This document shows positions 38,801 through 64,000 of a stretch of 64,000 bases of DNA, in pieces. Positions within the stretch are counted from its first letter, which is position 1, and every line of letters begins with the position of its first letter. Below the pieces are notes generated by a model. It worked only from the letters and a program-made list of their open reading frames with translations. It was not told where the DNA came from and did not search any database. The DNA comes from a virus: IMG/VR virus record IMGVR_UViG_3300034101_001153, positions 32,177-96,176 of that record. One strand, 5' to 3'. The position numbers and the translations under genes were made by a program.

Positions 38801-39356
38801 ACTGTCGTCCAGTCCACTGTGTATTCTTACCCATATTGATAAGATCATCGGCACCATTTCTTACTAACTGATTAAATATGCCAAATTCTTGACTTAGAAG
38901 TTTCATTCTTGTGGAGGCATTTTTAAAATCTACTTGAGTAGGAACAGCCATAAGACCTTGCATTTGACCAGCAGCATTTCTACCAACAGGAACAGCAATT
39001 GCCTCTTGGAACCTAACTTGCTCTCTAGCAAGTTGTCTCATCATTGATGATTGTCTGGTATATCCACGATATGCTTCTGCAAAATACTCTCGCATAGTCA
39101 TTTTATTGCTGGCAAGAGCCTTACCAAACTTCTCAGTCTGGCTTGTTATATTAACCATTTGAGTGGTAAATCCACCCATGCTAGAAATATTTGCAGCAAA
39201 AGCCTCTACCATAGAGTTTCTTGCCTTGATCGCTGATTTATCTAATGAATTAAATGCCAAATTGAGCATACCGATTTGACCAGCAAGCGCTTTTGCCTGC
39301 GCCATCGCAGAGCCAAAATCAGCGTCGTACCTAAGAGTGGTTGTAATACTATCCAA
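32883..39356 (-). CDS. Tape measure protein with NlpC/P60 peptidoglycan hydrolase domain
   Basis: The 2157-residue protein sets tail length. The start is TTG 39356, since the conserved opening DSITTTLRYDADFGSAMAQA precedes any ATG. Residues about 190-480 match the TP901-type core (MDKQMTRFAKVYGQD). Hydrophobic segments occur near 540-570 and 1130-1170, and long coiled coils at about 1550-1790. Two GG-D-IPALLEPGEFVM-like motifs (DRIPALLEPGEFVMNKEA and DDLIPAYLSNGEYVIRAS) frame the middle. Near the end an NlpC/P60 domain carries WDCTKLTAW (nucleophile Cys) and GAHHASMYDG (His), suggesting local wall cleavage during DNA injection. Confidence 0.93.
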   Translation of the reverse strand: MDSITTTLRYDADFGSAMAQAKALAGQIGMLNLAFNSLDKSAIKARNSMVEAFAANISSMGGFTTQMVNITSQTEKFGKALASNKMTMREYFAEAYRGYTRQSSMMRQLAREQVRFQEAIAVPVGRNAAGQMQGLMAVPTQVDFKNASTRMKLLSQEFGIFNQLVRNGADDLINMGKNTQWTGRQLTVGLTMPVVLFGAAFAKTFMDIDKQMTRFAKVYGQDVIGTSAAATEQMKKQVMDLAATISSQYGVAAKETVGLAADIAATGKEGQDLLDTVEQTNRLAVLGEVDRQEAMKATLAVQSAFKQNTNELAESINFLNAIENQTSTTLNDLVEAIPKAGPVVKGLGGSIQDLSVLMVAMKEGGIPAAEAANAIKSGLASLINPTKKASEVAKQFGVDLVGIVDANKGQLMPTLFAVQEALNGLDAFSRSKIIEEIFGKYQFARISALFNNLGKAGSQTQQAMELAGASTTELAAIANQELKAYTESTTVRFQRMVETVKNQLIPMGASLLEMLVPALEKLSGIIDVVKSGFENMPSFLKEPMKILAGAALIAGPVLMLVGLFKNLIGNSIKFGMSIVSLGARIGGINVQKFELLDAETAAASLQVDNLSQSFANQTGIVAGLNRELGKYLTQLRQTATTSPNMMVRPVPAPIRRARGSMGPEMVPGGFGGGDRIPALLEPGEFVMNKEATSKFGLILSAMNRGTIQGFQNGMEMGTAKGHIFSTVQSDMPGMYALIKRLQESESGVGVRNVSRQDAYKFSGGGNLGWHVDLWKNITQAENQLQTILSTRRNVGFFKQKAEEIIQDEKQRQRIMHAVETGAIQHEMDVSEYRRVLQSMAQDIESGIVPATKRAVRGQTTVTLRLREYLNQTLQQQQLAGVTNAEMQTAYNRYLSIFNSMRGQTDAVSLEVKNVLAQSLQRIRETMINTGIQVAELPNEVLTAIKVHSQQSSPSREAERVGKNLSDGFIIGADSVDGKPAGQRIAAEVTSGLIIPGRGATATGPIIDPRQMSLGPTVSTIYGPTGLPLRFSGASGETERIRRSVVDLGMPGMPQRTGSVADDERRSLMGSGAMNAMFGLSMAASTVTMFGDQTSAATQALSKFSMGLMAVSSLMMLMPSKMPTNLLGLGTLGGKVGAAGATRAAAGTTGLATSALVRGGAALSMLGGPVGIAAGVGITAAIAGFVMYKNAAEEARQRAISAFADPAKTAEYFGKSISDVTEIIKQNTLEVQTGLEDISEIDDALKEAVREDYAPLIERLKYSTATAGAQQLAIAFNKMVASGLSAQEAKDAVQAIAEEAGTAGGTAFGVAMKNEMLKKMTTGQMIENVVTLFSPSQNAGLANQMREELELIYPSSQPQEGAFAYGDSGIGLMPMNAALAQPGVFGNTDRARAINQMNSDILAMSDITSGQLVGITEQLFVLFEKAPEKAIDAFDRLAEEARKNGQIAFDPQPVKDFLTSIDKNAGDALGRFIGDSEEKSQAIMRAISAGITPGEIQQIITQGGIPALEVEVNFRVNTAALQNAVNAAKRQVQALVSEEGSMSKMLQQGQSRLDKLISNRDAGLKKFESGSEGMSEAFEQQQQAAEDEIKALEKEQEQIEKSADAYVDSIQKRQKADKFHADQRKSSMSALQSLAEGDVFAFLGARNEMQANAADYAYEQEIQRIEDRKSAETEAIQDAIDKKQEQMDLDQRAHDSAMKGIEDEKQAYIDAQNAKIEQQRINNNEMQTLIENIREEELASIKDIEKAFGTSEAFKYKTRIDNLLKETHALLQQQIIQRDITTQDATAELSSMYRDVFGSAGPMQDVFQYLGFPQFRKQPDIAPQNRASGGYISGPGGPKDDLIPAYLSNGEYVIRASSVERYGPEFFDAVNAGRFANGGRVGDPIGDKPPRLQDRSPFARFVQRKPLEKENRNRGNRGGRGSSGSGTTNNETFPTGTGGDAALNYARSQVGEPYVDTPPGARPPNSWDCTKLTAWAWAVATGADPSKGYDDDNAKVRLTPYSYTQVNEVARIGSQLDPKTWTTGGKAGDLLFFFKNGAHHASMYDGKGGIVEASSPSTGVRTESVFNSWNQQHFSSAGRPRGYANGGMIGSIPRKGIMPRYNLGGQVSMPSSNFSANSSMYNININANGVKDPAVVADIVIKRINSEKTRRQHSRVVS

Positions 39357-57974: not shown

Positions 57975-58667
57975 ATGAAGATAGATGTTCTAGATCATGG
58001 ATATGTTAGATTAATTGGAAACTTCGGCTCTGACCTTGAAGTAGTTAATTCTGCTAGAGTATCTTATGATAAATCCGTAGACTTTATTGACTCTAAAGAT
58101 GAAAGACTTCTTGAATTTTTAATTAAGAATAAACATGATTCAACTCTTAGACATTGTACCATCTCCTTTGAAATTTACGCCCCTTTGATGATTGCCAGAC
58201 AATGGTACAAGCACGCGGTATCTAGTACTCATTTAGACGATCAAAACGGATGGAACGAATCGTCGCGCCGTTACGTTACAGAAGAACCAGTCTTTTACGA
58301 GCCGCGAAAATGGAGAACATCCCCATCAAATTCCAAACAAGGATCTGGCGATCCAGTGCATCCTGACATGTCTGCACGCATTAGCGAGCGACTTAAGTAT
58401 CATATTGACGAATCTGTCAATTTGTACAATTCTTTGCTCGCATCTGGCGTGGCAACAGAGCAGGCACGTTTATTTCTTCCCGCATATGCGATGTATGTCC
58501 GCTGGCGCTGGACAACAAGCCTTAATGCAGTATTACACTTTTGCTCACTACGTCAGGCAGAAGATGCTCAGTTAGAAATACAAGAATACGGAAATGCTGT
58601 ATTATCTATAGTCAAAGACTTATATCCTTTGTCAACGAGATATTGGGAGCGGCACAGAATTGGATGA
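57975..58667 (+). CDS. thyX: Flavin-dependent thymidylate synthase
   Basis: The 230-residue enzyme makes dTMP from dUMP with FAD. The motif region reads RQWYKHAVSS, a nine-residue insertion, then NGWNESSRRY, a longer variant of the RHRxxSxNExSxRY signature that some phage ThyX proteins share. Conserved RHCTISFEI and the C-terminal SLRQAEDAQLEIQEYGNAVL are present. AGGATT precedes the ATG. It complements RNR in supplying dNTPs. Confidence 0.9.
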   Translation: MKIDVLDHGYVRLIGNFGSDLEVVNSARVSYDKSVDFIDSKDERLLEFLIKNKHDSTLRHCTISFEIYAPLMIARQWYKHAVSSTHLDDQNGWNESSRRYVTEEPVFYEPRKWRTSPSNSKQGSGDPVHPDMSARISERLKYHIDESVNLYNSLLASGVATEQARLFLPAYAMYVRWRWTTSLNAVLHFCSLRQAEDAQLEIQEYGNAVLSIVKDLYPLSTRYWERHRIG

Positions 58668-58866
58668 CAATATACAAGATATCAATGAACACCTAGGCAT
58701 GGTTACTTTTATCATGTTAGGTAGAATATACGATATGCTTGCTTTGATCGCAGATGGAGTAGGCAAGGGTGAAGACGCATTGCGTCTGATTGAACTCCAT
58801 AGATCAGGGGAGATTATGTCACCGCCCCCGTCTTTAAACGTAGAGGAAGAAGATGAACAATCTTAA
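58660..58866 (+). CDS. Small hypothetical protein, 68 residues
   Basis: TTG 58660 overlaps the thyX stop with GGGAG about 10 bases before. The helical N-terminal half (DDNIQDINEHLGMVTFIMLG) contains a hydrophobic stretch and the C terminus is acidic (NVEEEDEQS). Unrecognised. It is coupled to both neighbours. Confidence 0.6.
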   Translation: MDDNIQDINEHLGMVTFIMLGRIYDMLALIADGVGKGEDALRLIELHRSGEIMSPPPSLNVEEEDEQS

Positions 58867-59125
58867 AATTGAAATTATGAGATATAAGTTATCTCATGGA
58901 TGCATGATCTGTGGATATGATAAAAATCCTCATGTATTACATTTTGCTCATCGTGATCCTGCTACTAAGTATAGAAATAAATATGGCAAGGTTGTAGAAC
59001 CATCAGATATGATCAAGGGTCGCCACCGCCCCAGATATGGAGCAGCAACTGTATGGAAAGAAGTTGCTAAATGTGATGTTCTTTGCTCTAACTGTCATGG
59101 TGAGCAAACGTATCCGTTATCCTGA
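58853..59125 (+). CDS. Compact HNH-like nuclease
   Basis: The 90-residue protein has CMICGYDKNPHVLHFAHRDP and CDVLCSNCHGEQTY, two CxxC pairs around an HxxH-type HNH core with a conserved basic loop (GRHRPRYGA). GAGGAAGAAG precedes the ATG. It may be a homing or restriction-type nuclease. It is the last gene in AT-rich sequence before the composition change. Confidence 0.7.
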   Translation: MNNLKIEIMRYKLSHGCMICGYDKNPHVLHFAHRDPATKYRNKYGKVVEPSDMIKGRHRPRYGAATVWKEVAKCDVLCSNCHGEQTYPLS

Positions 59126-59307
59126 CGTTATCAAATCGTTATATTCTAATTTTAGAAAAATGTGAATATGTGTAATTCTTGTACGATGCTAATATAAAAA
59201 CTCAGCATTATGCGGATATTAGTGAGCCCATATGTGACCTACCCCACATAGAAATGTGTCCGATATGAGGACATTTGGGCATATTCCTTGCCTTTCAAGT
59301 TGCGATC
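59126..59307 (+). other. Gene-free region with three hairpins
   Basis: No open frame of note is found. Hairpins: ATGCT/AGCAT (59186-59208), TATGTG/CACATA (59231-59250) and TGTCC/GGACA (59257-59273, followed by TTT). These probably end the thyX transcript and insulate the early region that starts at 59308. Base composition moves from AT-rich to GC-rich across this stretch. Confidence 0.5.
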
Positions 59308-59329
59308 TGTCATACCCCCATGCTAGGGT
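59308..59329 (+). promoter_or_regulatory. Family promoter P1
   Basis: TGTCATAC box, then TG-C-TAGGGT extended -10 (59321-59329). A TTGCGA -35-like hexamer ends at 59305, 18 bases before the -10. No gene starts within 60 bases; the transcript would begin near 59336 and cover the hairpin leader at 59336-59393. Confidence 0.7.
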
Positions 59330-59335
59330 GTACCT

Positions 59336-59393
59336 ATAACTAAATAATCCTGAGCAAATAAACCGCCTCGCGGGTGAGCCTCAGGCCACAGAA
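59336..59393 (+). ncRNA. Candidate leader or small RNA between P1 and P2
   Basis: CCTGAG (59349-59354) pairs with CTCAGG (59380-59385) and encloses CCGC-CTC-GCGG (59363-59373). It lies between two family promoters with no gene of its own, so it is a candidate short RNA or an attenuator leader for the following operon. No T tract follows. Confidence 0.35.
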
Positions 59394-59415
59394 TGTCAGA
59401 CCCCTGTGCTAGACT
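59394..59415 (+). promoter_or_regulatory. Family promoter P2
   Basis: TGTCAGAC box and TG-C-TAGACT extended -10. Drives the operon from 59441; the mRNA would start near 59422 with a 19-base leader containing AAAGGAG. Confidence 0.8.
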
Positions 59416-59440
59416 CAGGGCAGAAAGAAAGGAGATGATC

Positions 59441-59608
59441 ATGCATCGTGCAAAGATCACCGCGCTCTCGCAATACAGCGGCGAGCAGGTTCACATCGTT
59501 GAGGTAGAAGGTCACACCTTCTACGCGACAGTAGTTGGCACCGTCAAGGGCATCACGCTCGCTGGTGCCGTTGTCACCGCCCTTGAGATTGAGGAGGTGT
59601 CCGCATGA
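59441..59608 (+). CDS. Small early protein, 55 residues
   Basis: ATG 59441 lies 6 bases after AAGGAG; two upstream in-frame ATGs are too close to that site. The product, MHRAKITALSQYSGEQVHIV onward, is a compact beta-rich protein with no recognised family. It is the first gene after P2. Confidence 0.7.
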   Translation: MHRAKITALSQYSGEQVHIVEVEGHTFYATVVGTVKGITLAGAVVTALEIEEVSA

Positions 59609-59892
59609 TTGAGGTTTCTCGTATCGTCAAGGGCTTTGCCCATGACCTGCCTGCCTTGTTTGAGGCTCCCATCGTTTCGGGCAACTTTGTTGCCACTCTT
59701 TGGATGACCGCCGAACCTATGACGGACTGGCGCAACTATGAGTTTGTGCGCGTCACTGAGGTTGAGTCTGGCGAAAGTATTGACCTAGACATCTATGACA
59801 GCGTAACATGGCTACAGCCCGAAGATGCCGACAGCCCTGCGCTACAGGCTGAACTCATTACTGCACTTGCTGCGAAAGGAATAGAACTGTGA
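59605..59892 (+). CDS. Small early protein, 95 residues
   Basis: ATG 59605 overlaps the previous stop (ATGA). MIEVSRIVKGFAHDLPALFE and an acidic, Trp-containing body (WLQPEDADSPALQ) show no known motif. GAGGAGG lies upstream within the previous gene. Confidence 0.7.
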   Translation: MIEVSRIVKGFAHDLPALFEAPIVSGNFVATLWMTAEPMTDWRNYEFVRVTEVESGESIDLDIYDSVTWLQPEDADSPALQAELITALAAKGIEL

Positions 59893-59984
59893 GAACCTTT
59901 GCACAACATCTCTTGTCTTTTGTAATCGTTGGCGGTATTCTTACTGCTATGGCTATCGCTGGTGGAATAGAGGGAGGCTTCTAA
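59889..59984 (+). CDS. Micro membrane protein, 31 residues
   Basis: GTG 59889 overlaps the previous TGA. The peptide RTFAQHLLSFVIVGGILTAM ending in EGGF is a single transmembrane helix. It ends in a TAATG junction with the next gene. The product could sit in the inner membrane as a small early toxin-like or exclusion factor; the role is not shown. Confidence 0.55.
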   Translation: MRTFAQHLLSFVIVGGILTAMAIAGGIEGGF

Positions 59985-60256
59985 TGGTAAAGGTTCAGTC
60001 TTTCGATGGTATGTCCTTGGTGAATGCGAAGGCTGAGATTCAGCACCCGCTCGCTGATGAGGTGTCTATCGCTATTGGTGATGGTGCCATGGCACGCTTC
60101 CCCTACTCTGTAGAACTTGCATTCTTCAAGAATGGCGATTGGCAAGAGTATATTCTTGAAGAGTTTGCTGCATATCACTCTGGCGGTGTGTATGCGTATG
60201 TTCCCTTGGAGATGTTCGCTAACTTCCTTGAGGCTTGGAGGGTTCGGTATGCTTGA
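59984..60256 (+). CDS. Small early protein, 90 residues
   Basis: ATG 59984 follows GGAGG by 8 bases. The protein (MVKVQSFDGMSLVNAKAEIQ; VELAFFKNGDWQEYILEEFA; YVPLEMFANFLEAW) has a KTSC-like or beta-plus-helix layout seen in small phage proteins binding peptides or nucleic acids. Unassigned. Confidence 0.65.
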   Translation: MVKVQSFDGMSLVNAKAEIQHPLADEVSIAIGDGAMARFPYSVELAFFKNGDWQEYILEEFAAYHSGGVYAYVPLEMFANFLEAWRVRYA

Positions 60257-60437
60257 TCTTCATGATTCCCGCACGGGACGGACGTATCGTTGGAATGAAT
60301 CGCACACCGTCAGCATCTATAACCGCGAGGGTGAAGAAATCGACTGCTTCACCTTTGGATTCATGGCAGACGGTAGCACTCCAACCTTTGTAGAGTTTTG
60401 CGCGGCAGTGAATAGGAGAATTAGAGAGTATGTCTAA
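60249..60437 (+). CDS. Small early protein, 62 residues
   Basis: ATG 60249 overlaps the previous stop by 8 bases with GGAGG 8 bases upstream. MLDLHDSRTGRTYRWNESHT begins a beta-rich, Arg-containing protein. Unrecognised. Confidence 0.65.
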   Translation: MLDLHDSRTGRTYRWNESHTVSIYNREGEEIDCFTFGFMADGSTPTFVEFCAAVNRRIREYV

Positions 60438-60630
60438 CGTGAAAGTCAATCCACCCGATGCATTCATCATGAATTGCAAGATGATGTATAACGAGGTCGG
60501 GCAGATGCAGGATCGCATCAGTAGAATGTGGGCATCATCCGATGGTGAGCGTGATCAGTCCATGCTGGAATACATAGAGGACATGCTAGAGAATATCGAA
60601 ATAGAGTTGCGAAATAGACTTGACAATTAG
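60430..60630 (+). CDS. Small helical early protein, 66 residues
   Basis: ATG 60430 overlaps the previous stop; AGGAGAATTAGAGAGT is upstream. The product is Met-rich and helical (MNCKMMYNEVGQMQDRISRM; LEYIEDMLENIEIELRNRL). Last gene of the P2 operon, directly before element A. Confidence 0.65.
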   Translation: MSNVKVNPPDAFIMNCKMMYNEVGQMQDRISRMWASSDGERDQSMLEYIEDMLENIEIELRNRLDN

Positions 60631-60638
60631 CGTTTTGT

Positions 60639-60667
60639 GGCCCGGCACACCTAGCGCACTTTGTCAA
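60639..60667 (+). promoter_or_regulatory. Repeated intergenic element A
   Basis: GGCCCGGCAC, 13 variable bases, then TGTCAA. It starts 8 bases after the previous stop and 67 bases before P3. Similarity with elements B and C continues for about 40 bases downstream (GTCAAGT, then TGTGATT and CACT-GAAA-like blocks). A protein-binding site or RNA element is likely. Confidence 0.6.
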
Positions 60668-60733
60668 GTCCTTTAAGATGTGATTTACGACACTCACGAA
60701 AATGTCCCAGATAGCGGAACAGACCCCCTTCAC

Positions 60734-60755
60734 TGTCAGACCCCCATGATAAGGT
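60734..60755 (+). promoter_or_regulatory. Family promoter P3
   Basis: TGTCAGAC box and TG-A-TAAGGT extended -10. The gene at 60784 starts 29 bases after the hexamer, behind AGAAAGAAGGG. Confidence 0.8.
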
Positions 60756-60783
60756 ATACCTAGATAGAAAGAAGGGTTTTACC

Positions 60784-60903
60784 ATGACAAAGTTCGCATA
60801 CATTGACTACTCCGCCGACGCGCAAGAGCGCGAGGATTGGCTGGCATGGCTCCAGGCTAAGGCTGAAGAGCGTAGACTGTCAGACTCTCATGGTAAGGTA
60901 TGA
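60784..60903 (+). CDS. Microprotein, 39 residues
   Basis: MTKFAYIDYSADAQEREDWL, then AWLQAKAEERRLSDSHGKV. The last eight codons coincide with promoter P4. Helical, unrecognised; start behind GAAGGG. Confidence 0.6.
   Translation: MTKFAYIDYSADAQEREDWLAWLQAKAEERRLSDSHGKV
60878..60899 (+). promoter_or_regulatory. Family promoter P4 (leaderless type)
   Basis: TGTCAGAC box and TG-G-TAAGGT. Exactly 6 bases separate the hexamer from ATG 60906, so +1 falls on or next to the start codon. The site lies in the 3' coding end of the previous gene. Confidence 0.75.
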
Positions 60904-60905
60904 GC

Positions 60906-61010
60906 ATGAACCTAGAAGAACTATACGAGAACTTCCTCCGCTTGGAGGCCACCCTTGACCTTGACCCCAACCCTTGGGTGTCAGACCATGATGATAAGGT
61001 GAAGCCATGA
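60906..61010 (+). CDS. Microprotein, 34 residues, leaderless
   Basis: MNLEELYENFLRLEATLDLD, then PNPWVSDHDDKVKP. Acidic and helical. Its C-terminal codons carry promoter P5. No ribosome-binding site precedes the ATG, as expected for leaderless translation. Confidence 0.6.
   Translation: MNLEELYENFLRLEATLDLDPNPWVSDHDDKVKP
60979..61000 (+). promoter_or_regulatory. Family promoter P5 (leaderless type)
   Basis: TGTCAGAC box and TG-A-TAAGGT, with 6 bases to ATG 61007. Fully inside the preceding gene. Confidence 0.75.
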
Positions 61011-61138
61011 CAACATACAAGGTGTTCGTAGATGGAGAGTTTTTCTCCACGGTTGCCACCCGCGAGGGTGCTGAGACTATTCGTGACTTTTGGGCATCAC
61101 CCCGTCAGACTGTTGAGATTGTGGAGGTGGGAGCATGA
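61007..61138 (+). CDS. Microprotein, 43 residues, leaderless
   Basis: MTTYKVFVDGEFFSTVATRE, ending VEIVEVGA. A beta-hairpin plus helix layout; overlaps the previous stop (ATGA). Similar in opening to the gene at 61278 (YKV pattern), hinting at a duplicated small fold. Confidence 0.65.
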   Translation: MTTYKVFVDGEFFSTVATREGAETIRDFWASPRQTVEIVEVGA

Positions 61139-61278
61139 CCACAGTAGAGTTTGAGAAGGCATGGCTGGATAACTACTACATGCTTGGCGACCATGCTTTC
61201 GACTATGCGCGGTGCATGTATCTGGACGACGGCACTCTGATTGTCGATGGAGTGCGCTATGAGGAGGTTCCTTTCTAA
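61135..61278 (+). CDS. Small protein, 47 residues
   Basis: MTTVEFEKAWLDNYYMLGDH, then AFDYARCMYLDDGTLIVDG. Overlaps both neighbours (ATGA and TAATG). GGAGGTGGGAGC lies upstream as ribosome-binding site. Unrecognised. Confidence 0.65.
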   Translation: MTTVEFEKAWLDNYYMLGDHAFDYARCMYLDDGTLIVDGVRYEEVPF

Positions 61279-61430
61279 TGCAGAATATCTACAAGGTCTA
61301 CTACGGTGGACAGTACATGTGTTCATTCTTTGATAGGGATGGTGCCCTTGATTGGGTCGCCACCCTCCTCGCGGAAGGCGAGGGGACCTTCGATGACTAC
61401 GAGATTCTGGATGGGAGTGACTTCCTATGA
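61278..61430 (+). CDS. Small protein, 50 residues
   Basis: MQNIYKVYYGGQYMCSFFDR, then ALDWVATLLAEGEGTFDDYE. GAGGAGG precedes the ATG. It shares its YKVxxxG opening with the 61007 product. Unrecognised. Confidence 0.65.
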   Translation: MQNIYKVYYGGQYMCSFFDRDGALDWVATLLAEGEGTFDDYEILDGSDFL

Positions 61431-61558
61431 GTTACCATCCCATCACTCACGATGAATTCGATCAGATACTGCGCGAGTCGGAGATTCGTTGTCGGACCCT
61501 CATGATAGGATCTTTCTATGTTGAGAAGCAGGAAGCAAGCGGGGAAGCACAAGACTAA
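61427..61558 (+). CDS. Small protein, 43 residues, over promoter P6
   Basis: MSYHPITHDEFDQILRESEI, then RCRTLMIGSF encoded by P6 and EKQEASGEAQD. It overlaps the previous stop (ATGA) and, in another frame, the start of the 61518 gene by 41 bases. The second half may be incidental. Confidence 0.5.
   Translation: MSYHPITHDEFDQILRESEIRCRTLMIGSFYVEKQEASGEAQD
61490..61511 (+). promoter_or_regulatory. Family promoter P6 (leaderless type)
   Basis: TGTCGGAC box (one mismatch) and TG-A-TAGGAT, with 6 bases to ATG 61518. Lies inside the 61427 frame. Confidence 0.75.
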
Positions 61559-61664
61559 TTGCTACTTTGGCTGTTGCCGTAGCATGACCAAGAAGCAGGA
61601 ACGTCGCTACCTGAAGCGGCGGGAAACTAACGAGTGGAAGAAGGATCAGAATGTGGCAGGATAG
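61518..61664 (+). CDS. Basic Cys-containing microprotein, 48 residues, leaderless
   Basis: MLRSRKQAGKHKTNCYFGCC, then RSMTKKQERRYLKRRETNEW. Strongly basic with CYFGCC, so nucleic-acid binding is plausible. It overlaps the whiB start by 14 bases, coupling the two. Confidence 0.6.
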   Translation: MLRSRKQAGKHKTNCYFGCCRSMTKKQERRYLKRRETNEWKKDQNVAG

Positions 61665-61866
61665 TGCAGCGTGCAAGGATGCAGACTCTAGTCTGTTTCT
61701 AAGTGGTGTGACCTCGCGTGTAGAGAAGGCTAAGGCTATTTGTGCAACGTGTAGCGTGATCGACAAGTGCCTTGCATTTGCGATTGCTAATGAAGATTTT
61801 GAGCCGCATGTCTACGGTGGAATGACTGGTGAGGAGAGGCGGCGTGTCGCCTTGACAAATGCCTGA
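61651..61866 (+). CDS. whiB: WhiB-family Fe-S transcription factor
   Basis: The 71-residue protein has the four WhiB cysteines (Cys8, Cys31, Cys34, Cys40 in C-x22-C-x2-C-x5-C), the WQDSAACKD opening, and the GGMTGEERRR beta-turn and basic tail. WhiB proteins bind a 4Fe-4S cluster and the host sigma factor region 4; phage versions can divert host transcription and block superinfection. It is restricted to actinobacteria and their phages, which fixes the host group. It stands right before element B. Confidence 0.92.
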   Translation: MWQDSAACKDADSSLFLSGVTSRVEKAKAICATCSVIDKCLAFAIANEDFEPHVYGGMTGEERRRVALTNA

Positions 61867-61871
61867 AAGTG

Positions 61872-61900
61872 GGCCCGGCACGCCCAATCATATTTGTCAA
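61872..61900 (+). promoter_or_regulatory. Repeated intergenic element B
   Basis: GGCCCGGCAC-N13-TGTCAA, 6 bases after the whiB stop and 45 bases before P7. The flanking 40 bases (GTGCTTACGACTGTGATTAA) match element A closely. Confidence 0.6.
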
Positions 61901-61944
61901 GTGCTTACGACTGTGATTAAGACCACACTGAAATATTCGCAGAA

Positions 61945-61966
61945 TGTCAGCCCCCTATGCTATAGT
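61945..61966 (+). promoter_or_regulatory. Family promoter P7 (leaderless type)
   Basis: TGTCAGCC box and TG-C-TATAGT, with 6 bases to ATG 61973. Confidence 0.75.
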
Positions 61967-61972
61967 CGTGCT

Positions 61973-62119
61973 ATGAGTAATCGTGTGAGCCACCGCCGTA
62001 GCGCGGAGCATAATCGTATCGTGCAGGAGCGCCGCCGTTCTAGTGCCGCGCAGCCTCATAAGAATAAGGCCAAGTATTCGCGCAAGGCCAAGCATCGTAA
62101 CCGTTTCGTTACCGACTGA
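61973..62119 (+). CDS. Highly basic small protein, 48 residues, leaderless
   Basis: MSNRVSHRRSAEHNRIVQER is followed by an Arg/Lys/His-rich tail (KAKYSRKAKHRNRFVTD). About one third of residues are basic, suggesting RNA or DNA binding. It has no Shine-Dalgarno sequence and starts 6 bases after the P7 -10. Confidence 0.65.
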   Translation: MSNRVSHRRSAEHNRIVQERRRSSAAQPHKNKAKYSRKAKHRNRFVTD

Positions 62120-62141
62120 TACCCCTTATCCCCCTATCCAT

Positions 62142-62163
62142 TGTCAGACCCCCATGATAGGAT
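62142..62163 (+). promoter_or_regulatory. Family promoter P8 (leaderless type)
   Basis: TGTCAGAC box and TG-A-TAGGAT, with 6 bases to ATG 62170. Matches the family consensus at every conserved position. Confidence 0.8.
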
Positions 62164-62169
62164 CATTCC

Positions 62170-62727
62170 ATGATTACAGTTACCGCCCCTGAGGGCACCA
62201 TCGAATACGCTACCTATGCCGCTCGCTTTGAGAGCCTTATCATGACCGCCACCCTCGCGCAGATGGAGCAAGCCTCCGTCTGGTATCGTGACGCGGAGGA
62301 GGTTGCGGAGGAGGTTGCTCGCAACCTTGACACTACCCTAGAGGTAGGCGCATCCATTGTCGCAGCATTCTCGCCGCGTGAGCGTTGGTCCACTAACGTC
62401 GCTAAGGCTATCGCGTTCTCGCTTGGCTCGCGTCCCGCTGGCCTTGGCAATAACCTCCGCATGGCAGATGCCGCGCTCGCGGCAGGCTTCGATGCGCTCA
62501 AGGGTCCTAAGACTAACGCTTTCGCTCGCGCTATCGCAGGCGACACTAACGCGGTTGTCATTGACGTTTGGATGATGCGTGCGGCAGGCATGGAGACTGA
62601 CTCTCCTAATAAGACTCAATACGCTCTACTGTCTGAGGCTGTCACCGCTGTCGCTGCACAGTTTGGCATCACGCCTCGCACCGCGCAGGCTCTTATCTGG
62701 ATCATCGTGCGAGGGGGTGCGGCGTGA
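62170..62727 (+). CDS. HhH-GPD-like (DUF7178-type) DNA-binding protein
   Basis: The 185-residue protein, leaderless from P8, has VGASIVAAFSPRERWSTNVA, ALKGPKTNAFARAIAGDTNA and VVIDVWMMRAAGM, a layout recalling the helix-hairpin-helix and catalytic Asp of HhH-GPD DNA glycosylases, and of the actinophage DUF7178 group. The lysine of GPK and the Asp in VIDVW sit at the places of the glycosylase turn and catalytic Asp. It may bind or repair DNA; activity is not shown. Confidence 0.65.
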   Translation: MITVTAPEGTIEYATYAARFESLIMTATLAQMEQASVWYRDAEEVAEEVARNLDTTLEVGASIVAAFSPRERWSTNVAKAIAFSLGSRPAGLGNNLRMADAALAAGFDALKGPKTNAFARAIAGDTNAVVIDVWMMRAAGMETDSPNKTQYALLSEAVTAVAAQFGITPRTAQALIWIIVRGGAA

Positions 62728-62783
62728 ACGATATCACGCTAGAGAATTTTCGGGAGATGTTGCGCGACTTTTCGGGGGTGTGA
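62724..62783 (+). CDS. Micropeptide, 19 residues
   Basis: GTG 62724 overlaps the previous TGA (GTGA) and reads VNDITLENFREMLRDFSGV before a TGATG junction. Its tight fit suggests it is translated, possibly only as a coupling leader. Confidence 0.35.
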   Translation: MNDITLENFREMLRDFSGV

Positions 62784-62854
62784 TGCTTCTTCTATCTATT
62801 TTGGTAGTGTCGCTTCTCGCGCTAGGGTTTCTCATATCACTTAGAAAGGAGTGA
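62783..62854 (+). CDS. Single-pass membrane micropeptide, 23 residues
   Basis: MLLLSILVVSLLALGFLISL followed by RKE: a transmembrane helix with a basic cytoplasmic end. Overlaps the micropeptide stop. Last gene before the terminator. Confidence 0.5.
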   Translation: MLLLSILVVSLLALGFLISLRKE

Positions 62855-62881
62855 AAAACCCTTATTTTTAAAGGGTTTTTT
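62855..62881 (+). terminator. Intrinsic terminator of the P8 operon
   Basis: AAACCCTT and AAGGGTTT form the stem around a short A/T loop, followed by a T6 run at 62876-62881. It is the clearest rho-independent terminator on the plus strand. Confidence 0.88.
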
Positions 62882-62890
62882 GGAACTGGC

Positions 62891-62919
62891 GGCCCGGCAC
62901 ATCTTATTCATCATGTCAA
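62891..62919 (+). promoter_or_regulatory. Repeated intergenic element C
   Basis: GGCCCGGCAC-N13-TGTCAA, 10 bases after the terminator and 62 bases before P9. The flank is more AT-rich than in A and B but keeps GTCAAAT and CACTGAAA. Confidence 0.6.
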
Positions 62920-62980
62920 ATCATTATTAAGATAATTATTACGGAGTCACTGAAAAAGTCACTGAAATTTTTCTTGATGC

Positions 62981-63002
62981 TGTCAGACCCATCTGCTATA
63001 TT
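62981..63002 (+). promoter_or_regulatory. Family promoter P9
   Basis: TGTCAGAC box and TG-C-TATATT. A TTGATG -35-like hexamer ends at 62979, 17 bases before the -10. The mRNA has a leader with AAAGGAT before ATG 63033. Confidence 0.85.
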
Positions 63003-63032
63003 TATATCACCTAGACAGAAAGGATATCCGTT

Positions 63033-63188
63033 ATGGCAAAGAATAAGGGAAACAAGTTCTCATATCTTGAGACTTGGAACACTCGCTACGGGACTCAGAC
63101 TCGTATTGTCACCCGTATTAATGGCAAGTTCGTTGATTCCACCCCCGCACTTGAGACACTTCGCAAGGGCGTCCCTGCTGGTCGCTGA
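63033..63188 (+). CDS. Small basic protein, 51 residues
   Basis: MAKNKGNKFSYLETWNTRYG, ending TLRKGVPAGR. Beta-rich and basic, with Ser/Thr clusters; no recognised family. Leader with a conventional ribosome-binding site from P9. Confidence 0.65.
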   Translation: MAKNKGNKFSYLETWNTRYGTQTRIVTRINGKFVDSTPALETLRKGVPAGR

Positions 63189-63316
63189 CTAGCAGAATGA
63201 TCCTGGGCATGATCGCTAAAACTGCCTGAGGGGACATGCGATCCGCTATCACACCTTGTTTGGCGAATGGAGGGTGGGATTCCTTCCTAAGATAGCATCA
63301 ACTCGCTTCCCCTCTA
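63189..63316 (+). other. Gene-free spacer before tRNA-Leu
   Basis: No credible gene, and no family promoter box is present. It contains short dyads (ATCCTGGGCATGATC) of unclear meaning. It probably forms the tRNA precursor leader if transcribed from P9. Confidence 0.4.
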
Positions 63317-63398
63317 GCCCAAGTGGTGGAATTGGCAGACACGCACGACTCAAAATCGTGTTCCGCTTGGAGTGTGGGTTCAAGTCCCACCTTGGGCA
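63317..63398 (+). tRNA. tRNA-Leu (CAA)
   Basis: Acceptor GCCCAAG/CTTGGGC with discriminator A, D-arm GTGGAATTGGCAGACAC, anticodon arm CACGA-CTCAAAA-TCGTG (anticodon CAA), long variable arm and T loop TTCAAGT. It reads UUG. This is the only tRNA on the plus arm. Confidence 0.95.
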
Positions 63399-63522
63399 CG
63401 CTAGTTATAGCACCTTGGACAATGCACCTGTATACAGAGAGGGTCGCAACCAATCATATATAGGGCCGAGATTCAAGGTCACTAGGCAAGCAACTCATAT
63501 ATGACTTCCTGAGCATGAAGAT

Positions 63523-63536
63523 AAAAGGCTCCTTTT
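63523..63536 (+). terminator. Small T-rich hairpin after tRNA-Leu
   Basis: AAAAG and CTTTT enclose GCTC, followed by T and C residues, just before the -35-like TTGATA of P10. The stem is short, so termination is doubtful. Confidence 0.35.
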
Positions 63537-63545
63537 TCTTGATAA

Positions 63546-63567
63546 TGTCAGACCCATATGATAGAGT
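63546..63567 (+). promoter_or_regulatory. Family promoter P10
   Basis: TGTCAGAC box and TG-A-TAGAGT. TTGATA (63539-63544) is a good -35 at 17-base spacing. A leader with AAAGGAAG precedes ATG 63596. Confidence 0.85.
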
Positions 63568-63595
63568 TCTACTACCTACTAAGAAAGGAAGCATA

Positions 63596-63742
63596 ATGAT
63601 TACTGTTGGCTCACAGTTCACCACCGCCAAGAGCGGTGTCACAGGTACGGTTCAGGAGGTTGTCACCAACACTAGTGGTTCGATGCGCGTTCGCCTTAGC
63701 GTGAATGGTCAGGACCGCTGGACGACTGTGAAGGGTGCATAG
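63596..63742 (+). CDS. Small early protein, 48 residues
   Basis: MITVGSQFTTAKSGVTGTVQ, then MRVRLSVNGQDRWTTVKGA: a compact beta-barrel-like protein with basic residues. ATG 63596 lies 8 bases after AAAGGA. Unrecognised; expressed from P10. Confidence 0.7.
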   Translation: MITVGSQFTTAKSGVTGTVQEVVTNTSGSMRVRLSVNGQDRWTTVKGA

Positions 63743-63744
63743 TC

Positions 63745-64000
63745 ATGGGAGACCGCGCTAACTTTGGAATCCGTCAGAATGACGGCAACATCATCTTCAT
63801 CTACGGACATTGGGCAGGCGAGGGTATGCTTGCTAAGTTTGCTAATGCTCTTGATCATGTTCAGAATGTTGGACGTATTGACGACCAGGCTTATGCAAAT
63901 CGCATCATCATCTCGCAGTTGGTTGGCGAGTCTTGGTCTGGCGATCTTGGCTGGGGTGTTACTGTGAACTACCTTGCAGACAACGAGCATAAGGTTCCTG
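63745..64000 (+). CDS. Conserved actinophage protein, 5' part
   Basis: The frame starts MGDRANFGIRQNDGNIIFIY and runs off the window at residue 85. I recall a widespread actinophage family opening MGDRANF with GHWAG, an ISQLVGE-type block and DNEHKVP; its function is unknown. The start follows the previous stop by two bases. Confidence 0.75.
   Translation, partial: MGDRANFGIRQNDGNIIFIYGHWAGEGMLAKFANALDHVQNVGRIDDQAYANRIIISQLVGESWSGDLGWGVTVNYLADNEHKVP

Follow-up and report, generated by a model that had tools for sequence, protein, structure and literature searches.

In the final 64 kb of the 96,176-base virus record IMGVR_UViG_3300034101_001153 of IMG/VR (64,000 nucleotides (nt), called the window here), small genes on the plus strand fill a right arm (about 58-64 kb), and several of them begin directly behind a promoter-like sequence. 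The question is what drives these genes, and whether some of their mRNAs are leaderless, i.e. begin with the start codon itself. We find it reasonably probable that the right arm is run from an array of promoters modelled on those of PafBC, the activator of a RecA-independent DNA-damage response, and that transcripts are leaderless where the A at +7 (the seventh base after the -10 hexamer) begins an ATG. The motif, its spacing, the initiator, the start codon, coding constraint on the genes and the presence of the same architecture on bacterial repair genes can all be read directly from sequence.

The promoter family, TGTCRGNCNNNNNTGNTANNNT, has ten plus-strand matches between 59308 and 63567 (P1 to P10), along with one unrelated one-mismatch match at 39131. 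Shuffled controls yield 0.55 matches per whole 64 kb, and none of 100 shuffles reaches the real count. The original prediction, made from the letters of the window, was that five of the promoters have exactly 6 nt between the -10 hexamer and an ATG, and all five spacings are borne out. P4 (TGTCAGACTCTCATGGTAAGGT, 60878..60899) reads TAAGGT-ATGAGC-ATG and precedes a gene for 34 amino acids (60906..61010); P5 (TGTCAGACCATGATGATAAGGT, 60979..61000) reads TAAGGT-GAAGCC-ATG and precedes one for 43 amino acids (61007..61138); P6 (TGTCGGACCCTCATGATAGGAT, 61490..61511) reads TAGGAT-CTTTCT-ATG, followed by a gene for 48 amino acids (61518..61664); P7 (TGTCAGCCCCCTATGCTATAGT, 61945..61966) reads TATAGT-CGTGCT-ATG, also followed by a gene for 48 amino acids (61973..62119); and P8 (TGTCAGACCCCCATGATAGGAT, 62142..62163) reads TAGGAT-CATTCC-ATG, ahead of a 185-amino acid member of the DUF7178 family (62170..62727; PF23802, Pfam E=4.7e-35). 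All five genes are predicted to be leaderless. P4 lies within the end of the open reading frame (ORF) at 60784-60903, P5 within the preceding gene and P6 within the ORF at 61427-61558. An in-frame ATG at 60900 was rejected as the start of the first leaderless gene, being upstream of the predicted +1.

Other members of the array precede genes with a leader and a Shine-Dalgarno (SD) sequence, which supports the earlier view that one promoter family makes both leadered and, by prediction, leaderless mRNAs. P2 (59394..59415) serves an SD-led gene from 59441 (or the in-frame 59435), P3 (60734..60755) the ORF at 60784-60903 with a leader of 28 nt after the -10, P9 (62981..63002) the ORF at 63033-63188, and P10 (63546..63567) an SD-led ORF from about 63596 to 63742.

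For comparison we used 39 contigs chosen for encoding a protein similar to the 185-amino acid one at 62170, and hence not for the motif; sites in relatives are mutually dependent, and counts by gene cluster are given where this matters. Among their zero-mismatch promoters, an ATG occurs at 6 nt in 42 cases and at 7 nt in three, and GTG is never found at the 6-nt position. The distribution of ATG distances is bimodal, with a spike at 6 that the neighbouring offsets do not approach and a second hump at 24-31 nt. With the wider pattern TGTCRG-N10-TANNNT the counts are 82 at 6 nt and nine at 7 nt, and every one of the 82 ATGs starts an ORF of 25 or more codons, versus 40% of all ATGs. The ratio of nonsynonymous to synonymous polymorphism (pN/pS) is 0.03-0.15 across the five window proteins (0.15, 0.03, 0.05 and 0.14 for those starting at 60906, 61007, 61518 and 61973, respectively), indicating purifying selection. 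Close relatives keep the ATG at 6 nt (eight of eight with a readable start for the gene at 60906, and 5/5 for that at 61007).

Where transcription starts can be judged from the leadered promoters. As this class is defined partly by the presence of an SD, its SD content is no evidence; its initiator A is. With no start codon near the promoter, the seventh base after the -10 is nonetheless A in 90% of SD-led sites, a pyrimidine-A step occupies the initiator position in 68 of 80 gene clusters, and P2, P3, P9 and P10 all have A at +7. In the leaderless class, a pyrimidine precedes the ATG in 81/81 sites. Both classes thus share one initiator at one position, and in the leaderless class the start codon begins with its A. 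Transcription therein probably starts on the A of AUG, as originally proposed; short of 5'-end mapping, the shared initiator A is the strongest evidence for this start that sequence can offer.

Mycobacteria translate 5'-AUG leaderless mRNAs well, and these make up about a quarter of mycobacterial transcripts (PMC4633059; PMC3898074), in agreement with the earlier remark that leaderless initiation is common in actinobacteria. The phage genes resemble actinobacterial leaderless genes in having the predicted +1 at the start codon, TANNNT just upstream and, by prediction, no leader, but differ in that the 6-nt position holds only ATG, never GTG, and in a -10 biased to SD-like AAGG or AGGA. A fixed gap of 6-7 bp between -10 and ORF also gives leaderless mRNAs in Deinococcus-Thermus (PMC12340547), where the -10 motif is bare, unlike the phage -10, which is extended and combined with a -26 element of the damage-response type. 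Gene 90 of mycobacteriophage Adephagia is likewise a predicted leaderless gene of an actinobacteriophage (PMC11373665), but it is a single gene, and the promoters there are described as SigA-like, in contrast to the array of damage-type promoters found here.

What the original prediction missed is that the promoter matches the PafBC type. The M. tuberculosis PafBC motif is TGTC(A/G)G-N10-TA-N3-T, and its direction matters (PMC8151990). Across the window and its relatives, the gap between TGTCRG and TANNNT is 10 nt at 248 sites, versus 3-47 sites at other gaps, and P2 to P10 all have TGTC(A/G)G at 10 nt from TANNNT. No conserved -35 hexamer appears in position-specific counts over upstream columns -22 to -3 in either class. 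On sequence grounds, the phage promoter thus matches the published type, sharing with PafBC-dependent (RecA-NDp / P1) promoters the TGTC(A/G)G element, the 10-nt gap, TANNNT, the lack of a conserved -35 and strand-specific use. In a reading of a different kind, TGTCAGACC would be mainly a repressor operator, comparable to the stoperators of cluster A mycobacteriophages, lying over a weak promoter, with the leaderless starts incidental. A short motif that is repeated, strand-oriented and clustered in one genome arm is what this predicts, but all functional copies stand at a fixed distance from TANNNT, the initiator A and a gene start, and the same element occurs at bacterial repair genes. We consider a repressor operator very unlikely.

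The bacterial occurrences are informative in their own right. The exact leaderless 31-mer pattern of the phage is present at 35 places in 84,980 bacterial and archaeal genomes; in actinobacteria nearly all of these begin long ORFs, and elsewhere mostly not. In eight actinobacterial genomes TGTCRG-N10-TANNNT-N6-ATG has 56 matches, versus one for a reversed control and 10 for a control with 9-nt spacing. Downstream are genes (identified by Pfam) for uvrB (two), xseA, sbcD, a DnaQ-like exonuclease, dprA, radA (two) and DUF222/HNH proteins (six); the uvrB gene of M. smegmatis is PafBC-dependent (PMC5656591). A by-eye reading of L187 as a uracil-DNA glycosylase found no Pfam support and was dropped. 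All eight genomes encode WYL proteins; most of the genomes have them paired in tandem, roughly 1 kb apart, the arrangement expected of PafB-PafC. At two ACC-type bacterial sites (L208 and L211), TGTCAGACC promoters directly adjoin LexA-type GAACnnnnGTTC boxes, which suggests that the genes there are under joint PafBC and LexA control. A scan for the ACC motif in 297 Actinomycetota genomes returned 10 sites, too few for the host lineage to be named.

By its architecture, then, the leaderless promoter form belongs to the damage regulon of actinobacteria and is held in common with the phage. Since the bacterial copies are themselves often leaderless at 6 nt and linked to repair genes, the arrangement would be borrowed and no phage invention. 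The phage promoters differ from the bacterial ones in mostly having ACC for GTG, in the extended -10, in their tandem arrangement and in serving small genes; their dependence on PafBC is predicted. We found no report of phages using PafBC promoters in the open-access literature. The promoter is not enriched in the cluster BE phages Karimac (first 24 kb) or Naboo (90 kb), and the array was thus seen in no cultured phage; a megablast of the right 24 kb of the window against cultured phages gave zero matches.

The phage portal protein is 53-58% identical to portals of Streptomyces phages of the Stanwilliamsviridae (cluster BE), and the phage record encodes two WhiB-family genes (Pfam); because of these two features we take the host to be an actinobacterium. 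WYL proteins were found in none of 19 phage records, and sigma-70 region 2 in none of 17 (these records may be fragments). With neither a WYL protein nor a detectable sigma-70 region 2 of the phages' own, host PafBC is the likeliest activator. PafBC is activated by single-stranded DNA and joins RNA polymerase-sigma-A at such promoters (PMC11804915).

Three features of the sites weigh against PafBC. The full mycobacterial -26 element, which we take to be TGTCRGTG, has GTG after C(A/G), and the window sites have ACC, ACT or CCC in its place, mostly without the GTG half. The extended -10 (TGn) accompanies 110 of 125 ACC sites, versus 9/33 GTG-type phage sites and 8/30 bacterial leaderless sites; as ACC is coupled to it, a different factor could read ACC. 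Several orthologues of the gene at 61973 keep the extended -10 and the 6 nt with GGGATCACGG replacing TGTCAGACC; some promoters may thus do without the -26 element. Upstream of orthologues of this gene in L011-L014 and others, GGG(A/G)TCACGG takes the place of TGTCAGACC, with the -10 and 6 nt kept; it may be a second type of upstream element, recognised by a different factor.

These features lead to the main rival to PafBC, namely that the promoters are ordinary extended -10 sigma-A promoters, again leaderless, with TGTCAGACC bound by another activator (for instance the phage's own WhiB protein, or some factor of host or phage that has escaped recognition). WhiB genes are present in 15/17 related phage records, one of them inside this array: the gene at 61651..61866 (Pfam E=4.2e-17), which lies between P6 and P7, speaks for an actinobacterial host, and its product is a candidate for the regulator in place of PafBC. 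However, WhiB proteins are described as contacting sigma-A region 4 near the -35 (PMC10245118), not a -26 element. The exact N10 spacing and the directionality are those of the PafBC motif (PMC8151990), and sister phages (L020, L022, L023, L026, L031 and L045) have the mycobacterial-type TGTCRGTG. Bacterial ACC-type copies, moreover, stand at radA and DUF222 genes and beside LexA-type boxes. We regard another activator as rather unlikely and retain host PafBC.

The original prediction also held that the five genes lack ribosome-binding sites. This is correct for the gene at 61973, whose promoter, P7, alone among the five has a -10 that is not SD-like; in the other four the -10 itself gives AAGG or AGGA 7 nt before the ATG, at SD distance. 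Calculated duplexes with the anti-SD are -5.0 to -8.5 kcal/mol for those four and -1.8 kcal/mol (effectively none) for 61973. AGG or GGA is found in the -10 of 55 of 81 leaderless sites versus 15 of 122 leadered sites (by gene cluster, 24/44 versus 9/80, p=4e-7), and in 9/42 bacterial leaderless copies. When hexamers of the leadered class are swapped in, the mean anti-SD duplex weakens from -5.3 to -3.0 kcal/mol. P3, which is leadered, yet has TAAGGT as its -10, counts against a strict rule, and the link between -10 and SD is therefore statistical.

We infer that the hexamer may be read twice, at the DNA level as a -10 and in read-through mRNA as a weak SD; this SD would matter only for transcripts that start further upstream. 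Alternatively, the SD-like hexamer only tunes promoter strength. It could also be that the genes are not leaderless in practice, with read-through mRNAs using AAGG or AGGA as the SD and the resemblance to a -10 being secondary. In favour of this, four of the five genes have an SD-like hexamer 7 nt ahead of the ATG, and such hexamers are enriched in the leaderless class and slightly more frequent where the promoter is inside an upstream ORF (28/35 versus 27/46 otherwise, p=0.055). However, from an SD one would expect neither a fixed spacing of TGTCAG nor that a pyrimidine-A step precedes every ATG, the gene at 61973 is entirely without an SD, and the same core drives clearly leadered genes. Translation from read-through mRNAs alone seems to us highly improbable.

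Orthologous genes switch between the two modes. The gene at 62170 is leaderless in close relatives, and L020, L022, L023 and L045 have SD-like leaders and no leaderless promoter. The gene at 60784 is leadered in the window (from P3) and leaderless in L021, L027 and L028; that at 61518, predicted to be leaderless in the window, has SD-led orthologues in L018 and L025. Leadered transcripts commonly begin with AUA, and one substitution, to AUG, could therefore suffice for a gene to become leaderless. That orthologues of one protein differ in mode between phages speaks against particular proteins having a fixed need for leaderless translation, and the suggestion that the phage uses this mode to favour certain early proteins finds no support here.

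We propose that the right arm is driven by promoters with a common core: TGTC(A/G)G as the -26 element, a gap of exactly 10 nt and then TANNNT, no -35 being conserved. The phage version adds an extended -10 (TGn) and carries ACC in place of the mycobacterial GTG. PafBC of the host is the likely activator; because it responds to single-stranded DNA, expression would increase when the phage replicates or host DNA breaks. Basal transcription probably depends on the extended -10, and induction on the -26 element. RNA polymerase would initiate at pyrimidine-A, the A being the seventh base after the -10. If this A begins an ATG, the mRNA would be leaderless and 70S ribosomes would start on the 5' AUG; if it does not, a stretch of 24-31 nt with an SD follows. 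Many leaderless promoters sit in the end of the preceding gene, where the -10 is usually TAAGGT or TAGGAT, and a read-through mRNA from an upstream promoter could use the same -10 bases as a weak Shine-Dalgarno sequence. In this scheme the 5' ends, PafBC binding, induction and timing are what we infer. More broadly, this group of phages may tie its accessory gene arm to the host sensor of single-stranded DNA, PafBC, by means of hybrid promoters (-26 element plus extended -10) whose single core serves both modes of initiation and whose -10 is read twice, by sigma-A in DNA for leaderless transcripts and as a Shine-Dalgarno sequence in read-through RNA; we put this forward tentatively, as somewhat less than an even prospect.

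The right arm has other features. P1 (59308..59329) is a variant (TGTCATACCCCCATGCTAGGGT) with TGTCAT, and is predicted to start, at an A at 59336, a short structured RNA leader (59336-59385) with the layout AUAACUAAAUA-ANN-stem-CAAAUAA-hairpin-UGAGC-stem. About 38 related copies were identified in other phage contigs, most of them just downstream of a promoter of the same family and many within leaders of SD-led genes; in some copies, CAAAUAA/UGAGC loops are stacked, two or more at a time. An alignment of 21 sequences of the tandem form shows compensatory changes in all seven outer-stem pairs (41 double-change cells versus 16.1 when shuffled, a value reached in 0/500 shuffles). The P1-type RNA had no Rfam match at E<=1, and it appears to be an RNA family not yet described. 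Between genes, a repeat of the form GGCCCGGCAC...(T)TGTCAAGT/ATC is present at 60639-60670, 61872-61905 and 62891-62925, i.e. 70-95 nt upstream of P3, P7 and P9, with two similar copies in L013. An Rfam scan of 58.5-64 kb identified tRNA only; a tRNA-Leu(caa) gene (63317-63399) stands alone in the right arm, apart from the minus-strand tRNA genes grouped at the window's left end. Minus-strand genes, the portal gene among them, make up the leftmost 57 kb. The G+C content is 48.9% over 58500-64000 versus 38.6% for the whole window, which suggests that the arm has a separate origin or is under other constraints.

If the proposal is true, these phages sense a damage alarm of the host that works independently of RecA. 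The single-stranded DNA that triggers this alarm could come from infection itself, and phage gene expression would be linked to a pathway so far known from host repair genes. A hexamer serving as both -10 and SD would be a compact solution for overlapping genes, and one that gene callers and promoter finders would miss. The phages also offer a natural set, with the same promoter core and orthologous proteins in both forms, that would be useful for asking what leaderless initiation is for.

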